A stretch of 64,000 nucleotides of DNA from Variovorax paradoxus (GTDB lineage Bacteria > Pseudomonadota > Gammaproteobacteria > Burkholderiales > Burkholderiaceae_C): positions 4,839,001 to 4,903,000 of the forward strand of contig NZ_CP045644.1 in assembly GCF_009498455.1 (NCBI RefSeq), written 5' to 3'. Below are positions 40,588 through 42,283 of the stretch, piece by piece. The notes below the pieces were generated by a model. The model did not search any database, had not been told where the DNA came from, and saw only the letters and a program-made list of their open reading frames with translations. A program made the translations under genes and the position numbers. The stretch's first letter is position 1; each line of letters opens with the position of its first letter.

Positions 40588-40989
40588 TCAGATCGCCTTG
40601 ACCTCGAAGTACGCCTCGTCCGTATCGCCCAGGTCGCGAAAGCCCGCCTTGCGCGCGGCGTCGTAGGCCTTGATCCAGCGCGCGGCCAGGGCGATCTCGG
40701 TCTTGGTGAGGTCGGTGTCGCTCGATTCGCTGGCGTTCTGGAAGGCGCGCATCACCGGCAGCACGTCGGCGCCCAGTTGCTTCTCGAGTTCGCGCCGGAA
40801 GCGTTGTTCTGCGATCCTGACCGCGTCGGCCGACGAATGGGGGTAGTCGATCAGCTTGGCGGAGAAGGCTTCGCGCAGCTCGTCTTTTTCGGATGCCTCA
40901 GGCAGGACCATGGGGGCGGGCTCGTGAAAGTGGAAGACGGTCGAGGGCGGCGGTGCCGGCCGGGGGAAGAAGAGTTCAGCTTGGGTCAT
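40588..40989 (-). CDS. Unknown protein behind a LexA box (candidate SOS gene)
   Basis: A 133-aa protein I do not recognise. It opens MTQAELFFPRPAPPPSTVFHF, a Pro-rich segment, followed by predicted helices rich in charged residues (AEQRFRRELEKQLGADVL, AARWIKAYDAARKAGF). No membrane segment, Cys motif or nuclease motif is visible, and it does not resemble SulA, ImuA or RecX. A perfect LexA-type box lies 54-78 bp upstream, and a 17-codon ORF with a strong ribosome site overlaps its start by 14 nt. It is therefore a likely DNA-damage-induced gene. Confidence 0.72.
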   Translation of the reverse strand: MTQAELFFPRPAPPPSTVFHFHEPAPMVLPEASEKDELREAFSAKLIDYPHSSADAVRIAEQRFRRELEKQLGADVLPVMRAFQNASESSDTDLTKTEIALAARWIKAYDAARKAGFRDLGDTDEAYFEVKAI

Positions 40990-41029
40990 GGCTCACCCAC
41001 GCGTTGGACTGGGATGCGTTCTTCTGCAT
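40976..41029 (-). CDS. Possible 17-residue leader ORF
   Basis: ATG at 41029 with AAGGA six nt upstream, reading MQKNASQSNAWVSHDPS and stopping at a TGA that lies inside the next gene (40976-40978). It is the first ORF after the LexA box and has a much better ribosome site than the 133-aa gene, whose ATG it overlaps by 14 nt. It probably serves translational coupling; a functional peptide is possible but unproven. Confidence 0.5.
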   Translation of the reverse strand: MQKNASQSNAWVSHDPS

Positions 41030-41043
41030 GTGGATTCCTTGAG

Positions 41044-41067
41044 AATACTGTTTAAATGTACAGTATT
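41044..41067. promoter_or_regulatory. LexA (SOS) box
   Basis: AATACTGT-N8-ACAGTATT is a perfect 8-bp inverted repeat containing the beta/gammaproteobacterial LexA core CTGT-N8-ACAG. On the minus strand it overlaps a plausible promoter (TTGATT, 18-nt spacer, CAGTAT) and sits just before a Shine-Dalgarno. The minus-strand unknown gene is thus the likely target; the plus-strand gene at 41174 is a second candidate. Confidence 0.85.
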
Positions 41068-41173
41068 GAATCAACAATTCAAATGGCAAACAGCAGGCAT
41101 GTGTGCTGCAAGCCCTCTGCTCTAATGGCGCCTCGCCGGGGAGGCCCAGGCTTGTTTCGCAGAGGAAGGCGAC

Positions 41174-41671: not shown

Positions 41672-41743
41672 CTCTGAGGGCATCGGCAGCCGGTGTCGAT
41701 GATCTGTGAGCTGCGATGCATGCATCGCTACTACCATCGCGCC

Positions 41744-42283
41744 ATGCGCCTCACCTTCCTCGCCAGCCTTCTTCTGATCGCCAGCGGCATGGCCCATGCC
41801 CAGCAGGTCTACCGATGCGGCAACCAGTACAGCGGCGAGCCGTGTGGCGGTGGTGGAGGCCGCGTGGTCGATGTGTCGCCGCCGGTGCGCAACCTCGAGG
41901 CGGCAGGCGCGTCCCAGGTGTTTCTCTGCGTGAGCAACAGCGGCGGGCGGTTCTGGTCGGCGAACCACTGCCGCGAGCGGGGTGCGCTGGTCGAGCGCAT
42001 CGAGCCCGTTCCGGGCGGGCTGCCGTGGGAGCAGCAGGTGGAGATTGCCGACCAGCAGACCCGGCGCGGCCATGCGGTCCAGCAGCAGGCCGCGCAGCAA
42101 CGCGGTGCGATGTCGCCGGGCGTGACGGGGAGCAATGGCGGCACCTCGCGTTGCGCACACTTCAATGAGCGGGTGGCGTACTACGACCGCTTGGCGCGAC
42201 AGCCGCAGAGCGGCGCGACCCAATCGTGGATCGCCGAGCAGCGCAAGGAGGCGCGCGATCAGCAGTTCAGGGCGCGGTGCTGA
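41744..42283 (+). CDS. Secreted DUF4124-like protein
   Basis: A 179-aa exported protein. The signal peptide ends MAHAQ, followed by QVYRCGNQYSGEPC, which resembles the DUF4124 opening (V-Y-R/K-C-G-x-x-Y). The remainder is Gln/Arg-rich with paired Cys (FLCVSNSGG, ANHCRERG, RCAHF), suggesting periplasmic disulfides. The ATG at 41744 matches the signal-peptide start; a GTG at 41693 is less likely. The function is unknown. Confidence 0.75.
   Translation: MRLTFLASLLLIASGMAHAQQVYRCGNQYSGEPCGGGGGRVVDVSPPVRNLEAAGASQVFLCVSNSGGRFWSANHCRERGALVERIEPVPGGLPWEQQVEIADQQTRRGHAVQQQAAQQRGAMSPGVTGSNGGTSRCAHFNERVAYYDRLARQPQSGATQSWIAEQRKEARDQQFRARC

Follow-up and report, generated by a model that had tools for sequence, protein, structure and literature searches.

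What does a 133-residue protein of no recognisable family do behind a perfect LexA-type box, and does the short reading frame that overlaps its start control its synthesis? Both questions are raised by a minus-strand unit in the 64,000-nt stretch of Variovorax paradoxus DNA analysed here (the window). Re-reading the sequence confirmed the layout that the earlier note had described, namely the palindromic box, read from 41067-41044 ahead of the unit, and a 17-codon first ORF with an AAGGA site and a 14-nt overlap with the second ORF, here called ORF C (Table 1). It also revealed a Shine-Dalgarno-like GGTGA of ORF C itself, 3 nt 5' of its ATG, which that note had missed.

Table 1. Positions of the box, the promoter-like element and the reading frames at the ORF C locus, in window coordinates.
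Feature	Position	Strand	Remark
LexA-type box AATACTGT-ACATTTAA-ACAGTATT	41044..41067	(-)	Perfect palindrome
Promoter-like element TTGCCA-16-AATACT	41062..41089	(-)	Consensus match only
AAGGA Shine-Dalgarno site of the leader	41036..41040	(-)	
17-codon leader ORF MQKNASQSNAWVSHDPS	40976..41029	(-)	ATG at 41029, stop ending at 40976
ORF C, 133 aa, SOS-linked family	40588..40989	(-)	Purifying selection
QAELF, C residues 3-7, beta-clamp pentapeptide-like	40969..40983	(-)	Conservation in aligned proteins
C core domain, residues 42-133, strand - long helix - helix - strand	40591..40866	(-)	Predicted

The promoter-like element occurs once in 801 nt, compared with 0.1 expected from shuffles, and its -10 hexamer falls within the LexA-type box, which would be the geometry expected of a repressor site. 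The window copy of ORF C is flanked by housekeeping-type genes with no adjoining phage genes, and dN/dS values of 0.21-0.35 (six pairs among four genomes) indicate purifying selection.

Taken alone, the 8-base core CTGT-N8-ACAG is uninformative, with one site in 64 kb against 0.62 expected; genome-wide there are 27 such sites, against 16 for the reversed control. The extended form TACTGT-N8-ACAGTA is found at two places in the 7.29-Mb genome and its reversed control at none. The second of these places is the start of umuDC, between umuDC and a divergent ORF that we take to be SRAP-like from its start, MCYSAEV. UmuD at this site is matched by NF007621 (3.6e-46) and the Y-family polymerase by PF00817; the SRAP-like ORF has no NCBIfam match, and the genome contains one PF02586 match (E 7.1e-15), reported without its genomic position. 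AT-rich CTGT-N8-ACAG sites also precede genes for rSAM_link_UDG (TIGR03916, 3.9e-166) and rSAM_PA0069 (2.7e-137), and the box of C is of the same type as those of umuDC and rSAM_link_UDG in its own genome. The lexA gene, the single PF01726 gene, has two imperfect CTG-N10-CAG sites ahead of it. Two further sites are recorded as observations: at L056 (G000:C1:6503647) a LexA-type box separates a divergent ORF from the start of a PA0069-family radical SAM gene, and an AT-rich box at L054 (G000:C1:5962099), TACTGTACATAAATACAGTC, lies upstream of a small ORF and a second ORF, presumably 2'-5' RNA-ligase-like, with similar ORFs occurring near dnaE2 in L067 and L068.

The closest named relatives found for C, compared over the whole protein, are those of Variovorax sp. 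Root473 (89% identity) and V. boronicumulans (84%). A one-sequence search returned 192 proteins, and among the 120 listed the names were mostly Variovorax, with no Pfam domain; a profile search returned 379, of which the 120 listed include Acidovorax, Paracidovorax, Delftia, Comamonas, Rhodoferax and one labelled Rhodococcus. C is present in 53 of 100 genomes of the genus Variovorax (E<=1e-3), in at least 45 of 399 genomes of the wider family (profile A1, E<=1e-6; a lower bound, with at most ten candidates scored per genome) and in nine of 399 genomes of the order (profile A4). Two of these nine belong to another family, and in both a box lies 33-35 nt upstream of the match, one exact and one with a single mismatch. 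The family occurs in two forms that share a core of about 90 residues, a core-only form of about 94-106 aa and a Variovorax long form that is extended by an N-terminal M-x-Q-x-x-L-F and by a hypervariable linker, often rich in proline; because the core is the more widely spread, it would be the ancestral unit. A distant possible paralogue of C (E 1.6e-7) lies in the own genome at G000:C1:4289377-4289622 (L217) and also in G032 (L216); no box was found for L217.

C belongs to a new family, for which the databases offered no convincing match. Consistent with the earlier view that the protein does not resemble SulA, ImuA or RecX, no such profile matched it, and Pfam, NCBIfam, PHROGs and PADLOC profiles, as well as the sequences of solved structures, gave weak and scattered matches only. 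The best profile match of the family, found in one relative, was a PHROG of unknown function (0.0055), and PADLOC returned no family at a convincing score (best E 0.0087). The SRAP profile did not match C itself, SRAP being only a neighbour in some loci. AlphaFold2 models built from two alignments predicted the same core, consisting of a strand (42-47), a helix (54-88), a second helix (96-116 or 117) and a strand (127-132), with pLDDT blocks of 80-93 in the core and a low-confidence N-terminus. Comparison of this core with solved structures yielded no convincing fold match, and the best matches in a viral library were two phage proteins of unknown function (E 0.04). A search of open-licence papers returned no report of family C, and the available parts of PMC7739468, PMC6511836 and PMC4151985 make no mention of it. 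Two predicted LexA-regulated hypothetical proteins of beta-Proteobacteria, hypA and hypB, are described in excerpts of PMC3323433 with Variovorax paradoxus among the species covered, and hypB is said there to be exclusive to Burkholderia; C is like them in being hypothetical and predicted to be LexA-regulated, the comparison being made with their description in that source, without sequences.

In alignment A1 (58 proteins), conservation reaches at least 90% at M1, Q3, E5, L6 and F7 and at none of residues 8-41. A script search specifically for M-x-Q-x-x-L-F found the motif in 38 of the 39 long forms, the 39th being the VAI-C copy, which reads MNNTELF. Since this QxxLF-type motif is restricted to the tail of the Variovorax long form and missing from core-only members, clamp tethering cannot be a mechanism of the whole family.

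The earlier note had proposed looking for boxes ahead of homologues, and outside Variovorax they were found almost throughout: in the best-scoring 40 of 56 matches, read over 150 nt upstream, 39 loci carry a box, 29 of them exact and 10 with one mismatch, and one (L158) has none. Other ORFs of the same loci, picked mechanically as a control, gave 3 exact and 14 one-mismatch boxes in 293, and random windows gave 11 and 324, respectively, in 8923. Within Variovorax, 73 of 90 matches were read, comprising 39 long forms and 34 core-only copies. The long forms have 20 exact and 7 one-mismatch boxes within 150 nt (the one-mismatch box of L024 appears spurious) and 12 have none, nine of which carry an exact or one-mismatch box before the upstream gene, 486-917 nt away. 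In four of the nine an exact box lies ahead of the upstream gene, at -486 to -488; in the other five (L009, L015, L027, L078 and L081) the box heads a longer cassette and lies at -628 to -917. It is exact in three of these five and has one mismatch in two, a one-mismatch box over such distances being weaker evidence. Among the remaining three, L012 has only a one-mismatch box at -365, L028 has no box that we could find upstream and L033 lies at a contig end. The core-only Variovorax copies differ, with an exact box in one of 34 and none within 150 nt in 33, a pattern that argues against uniform LexA control.

The genes around C were also informative. In several Variovorax genomes the order is SRAP (on the opposite strand), LexA box, then A (or A1 and A2), B and C, with the SRAP identity in L190 given by Pfam PF02586 (4.7e-25). 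Of the 78 Variovorax copies covered (among 90 matches), at least 7 have SRAP within 3 kb of C, whereas SRAP numbers and genome sizes would predict 0.09. "B" denotes a position rather than a gene family, and because this position is filled by at least three gene kinds that BLAST did not join (queries from L191, L194 and L195), the cassette is a loose one. Genes umuD and umuC follow C on its 3' side in L163, L172 and the Polaromonas plasmid pH6NP1, where a gap of 33 to 278 nt separates C from umuD; in L165 C is followed by a fragment of umuD. A dnaE2 gene lies 2.5-4.8 kb from C in L062, L067, L068 and L180. At 34 of the 40 non-Variovorax loci no SRAP, UmuD, UmuC or DnaE2 was found within about 6 kb, some of these loci being cut by contig ends. 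Several smaller observations belong here. Two core-only Variovorax copies, L067 and L068, have no LexA box and lie 4.1 and 2.5 kb, respectively, from dnaE2. In L233, L234 and L237 an ORF beginning MFIAYLETA... or MFVAHLETT... (84-134 aa as called) lies directly 3' of C. Downstream of umuC at L053:15-233 (-), near 3963.4 kb of G000, a small ORF (MSQTEFLPFP...) starts MSQxxF; BLAST detected relatives of it near C in L069 and L191, with weaker matches in L157, L172 and L179, and neither this ORF nor A or B had a match above the cut-off in Pfam, NCBIfam or PHROGs.

The cassette also occurs on mobile DNA. In Acidovorax phage Aval, gp48c is a C with an exact box at the genome end opposite the integrase, followed by gp47c and the A-like gp46c (1e-5); with its own promoter box apart from the main phage operons, it has the arrangement of prophage cargo (a moron), which was seen for this copy only. 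IMG/VR contigs carry C (L221) or B (L222 and L223) near their ends, and scans of viral contigs in which Aval gp48c and an Acidovorax copy served as queries returned no relatives. The idea that gp47c and all genes preceding C form one family B was dropped, as BLAST linked neither gp47c to the B genes nor the three B kinds to one another. Around the plasmid matches of gene A in Variovorax sp. SRS16 and WDL1, the annotated neighbours include one repair-relevant candidate, a replication-associated recombination protein.

Taken together, these comparisons strongly support the LexA control that had been suggested for the unplaced protein, with the box kept and some copies lying beside SRAP, umuDC or dnaE2, and on this comparative evidence C is very probably under SOS (LexA) control. 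Because many of its relatives keep the box and some adjoin damage-tolerance genes, C probably plays a hitherto unrecognised part in survival after DNA damage. In the mechanism that we favour, ORF C would be a LexA-repressed SOS gene; DNA damage would lead to cleavage of LexA, the promoter with its -10 in the box would fire and the small protein C would be made. In part of its range C would belong to a damage-tolerance cassette, arranged either as SRAP, LexA box and A-B-C or as C-umuD-umuC and carried on Comamonadaceae chromosomes, plasmids and the ends of phage genomes. At the stalled fork it would assist translesion synthesis or the tolerance of abasic sites, with SRAP, UmuDC or DnaE2-type polymerases as its partners, and the Variovorax long form would be tethered to the beta sliding clamp through its N-terminal QxxLF and flexible linker. 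This arrangement is like the SRAP/UmuDC neighbourhoods of PMC3765255, in excerpts of which SRAP forms SOS-linked clusters with umuDC, dinB or imuAB-dnaE2, prophages included; unlike the clusters as described in those excerpts, the present one has the small unnamed proteins A, B and C behind its LexA box. The sequence itself shows the box, the family, its neighbours, the conserved motif and purifying selection; LexA binding, induction, clamp binding and a tolerance role are what we infer for C, and the full picture of an SOS-induced damage-tolerance accessory acting with SRAP and error-prone polymerases, clamp-tethered in Variovorax, is put forward tentatively, at slightly less than even confidence. 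A bolder version appears doubtful as a whole, namely that C founds a new SOS effector family of Comamonadaceae, spread partly by phages and plasmids and set in a loose cassette with SRAP and UmuDC, in which the clamp tail gained in Variovorax makes it a small LexA-induced adaptor that recruits an error-prone polymerase, or abasic-site protection, to the sliding clamp.

Several other functions would also account for parts of this pattern. A small size, a LexA box in front of the gene and a near-invariant QxxLF at the N-terminus would suit a protein that fills the beta-clamp cleft during SOS and slows the replicative polymerase in the manner of Caulobacter SocB, which inhibits elongation through its clamp-binding motif according to the available part of PMC9690074. 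C is like clamp binders of the QL(S/D)LF class, such as SocB, in carrying QxxLF on a low-confidence, presumably flexible tail; the same excerpts place the bacterial QL(S/D)LF motif at the C-terminus and describe it as possibly far more variable, whereas that of C is N-terminal and would be a putative binding motif. Such a brake is nevertheless quite unlikely, given that core-only members lack the motif and that linkage to SRAP and umuDC favours tolerance over arrest. The copy of C with its own box at the Aval end, the three IMG/VR contigs with C or B near their ends and the patchy spread within Variovorax could instead reflect a cassette that serves the mobile element itself, through phage DNA survival, induction control or exclusion, with the chromosomal copies as relics. 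We consider this explanation unlikely, as the window copy lies between housekeeping-type genes with its box intact and under purifying selection and as PADLOC contributed no convincing family. ImpC resembles DinI, and C might likewise tune RecA filaments or UmuD cleavage. In three loci C is indeed a small SOS gene directly ahead of umuD and umuC, a layout like that of impCAB on mobile DNA, a umuDC-like operon for which an additional accessory protein has been suggested in the accessible part of PMC7092418. Unlike impCAB, C is predicted to fold as strand-helix-helix-strand, most of its copies do not adjoin umuDC and the 20 Pfam families that any of 33 members matched at E<=1 do not include DinI (HMMER filters can drop weak matches), which makes a modulator of this kind the least probable of these alternatives. 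If the clamp tether of the favoured tolerance accessory is real, C would act at the replication fork as a small damage-induced adaptor, which would be relevant to how stalled forks recruit SRAP and translesion polymerases. The SOS response predicted for a group of environmental bacteria thereby gains a conserved, unnamed family, which over part of its range is linked on mobile DNA with SRAP and Pol V.

The overlapping leader has a narrower distribution than the box. Among the 39 long forms, an ORF running from the leader ATG and ending at or just before C occurs only in the four closest genomes, so that homologues do not generally carry the leader ORF that the earlier note had proposed to look for in them. 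The box holds the same position in the three closest relatives, identical in two and with one base different in L007, whose leader has a one-base deletion that leaves 11 codons and a stop just before the C ATG; other relatives have no such leader or carry C behind a longer upstream gene. The four leader genomes share a locus in which a 165-aa ORF adjoins C, and this ORF is also present in four other genomes of the 100, which, judged by match positions, lack C at this site. The 14-nt overlap is an out-of-frame reading of the C coding sequence, ATGACCCAAGCTGA, and because it is C's own coding sequence, any ORF entering in the leader frame stops there and the ORFs of other relatives end at the same stop.

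Comparison with longer cassettes pointed to the origin of the leader, whose ATG corresponds to that of A1, a cassette gene that once came first and has been lost. The segment running from the box as far as the third codon of the leader aligns with the pre-A1 region and A1 relic (MPKRTVK...) of L084 at a score reached by 0 of 5000 shuffles; TTCTCAAGGAA also precedes the A1 relic in L084, where a different 22-codon relic begins at the same ATG, and the same kind of A1 start lies behind the boxes of L189, L190 and L193. The leader tail was compared with the end of B, which it resembles in L027 (12 of 5000 shuffles) but not clearly in four other copies (309 to 1275 of 5000), with 1083 to 2836 of 5000 for control tails (n=7); the shuffles preserve base composition only, and an origin of the tail from gene B is less certain than the A1 match of the leader start. 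The leader is thus probably a deletion relic, arising from loss of the cassette genes between promoter and C.

Whether such a relic has acquired a role bears on the earlier proposal that translation of C is coupled to the leader. Because the leader bases are conserved, with 0-2 changes in 39-40 sites compared with 29-54 in 307-309 sites at -400 to -90 (a region partly coding on the opposite strand), coupling is possible, but this is the weaker half of the proposal, the leader being confined to the four closest genomes and an apparent deletion relic. A leader peptide acting as a regulatory device, the translation of which is needed for or limits that of C, would be compatible with the favoured tolerance role, and the strong AAGGA site, the 14-nt overlap, the same 14-nt overlap of the upstream gene (B of the L191 kind) with C in L190, L191 and L192 and the stop of the shortened L007 leader just 5' of the C ATG all agree with it. 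We nonetheless regard this device as possible but on the unlikely side, since the leader takes this form in four genomes only and is frameshifted to 11 codons in one of them, the changes among the four are all non-synonymous or frameshift, C has its own GGTGA site and the leader RNA has no unusual fold (z -0.21 and 0.35), with no RNA structure or Rfam family detected. The locus also illustrates how a deleted operon can leave behind what looks like a leader peptide. Elsewhere in the window, the ORF at 41693-42283 (+) weakly matches (1.1e-5) a PHROG of unknown function.
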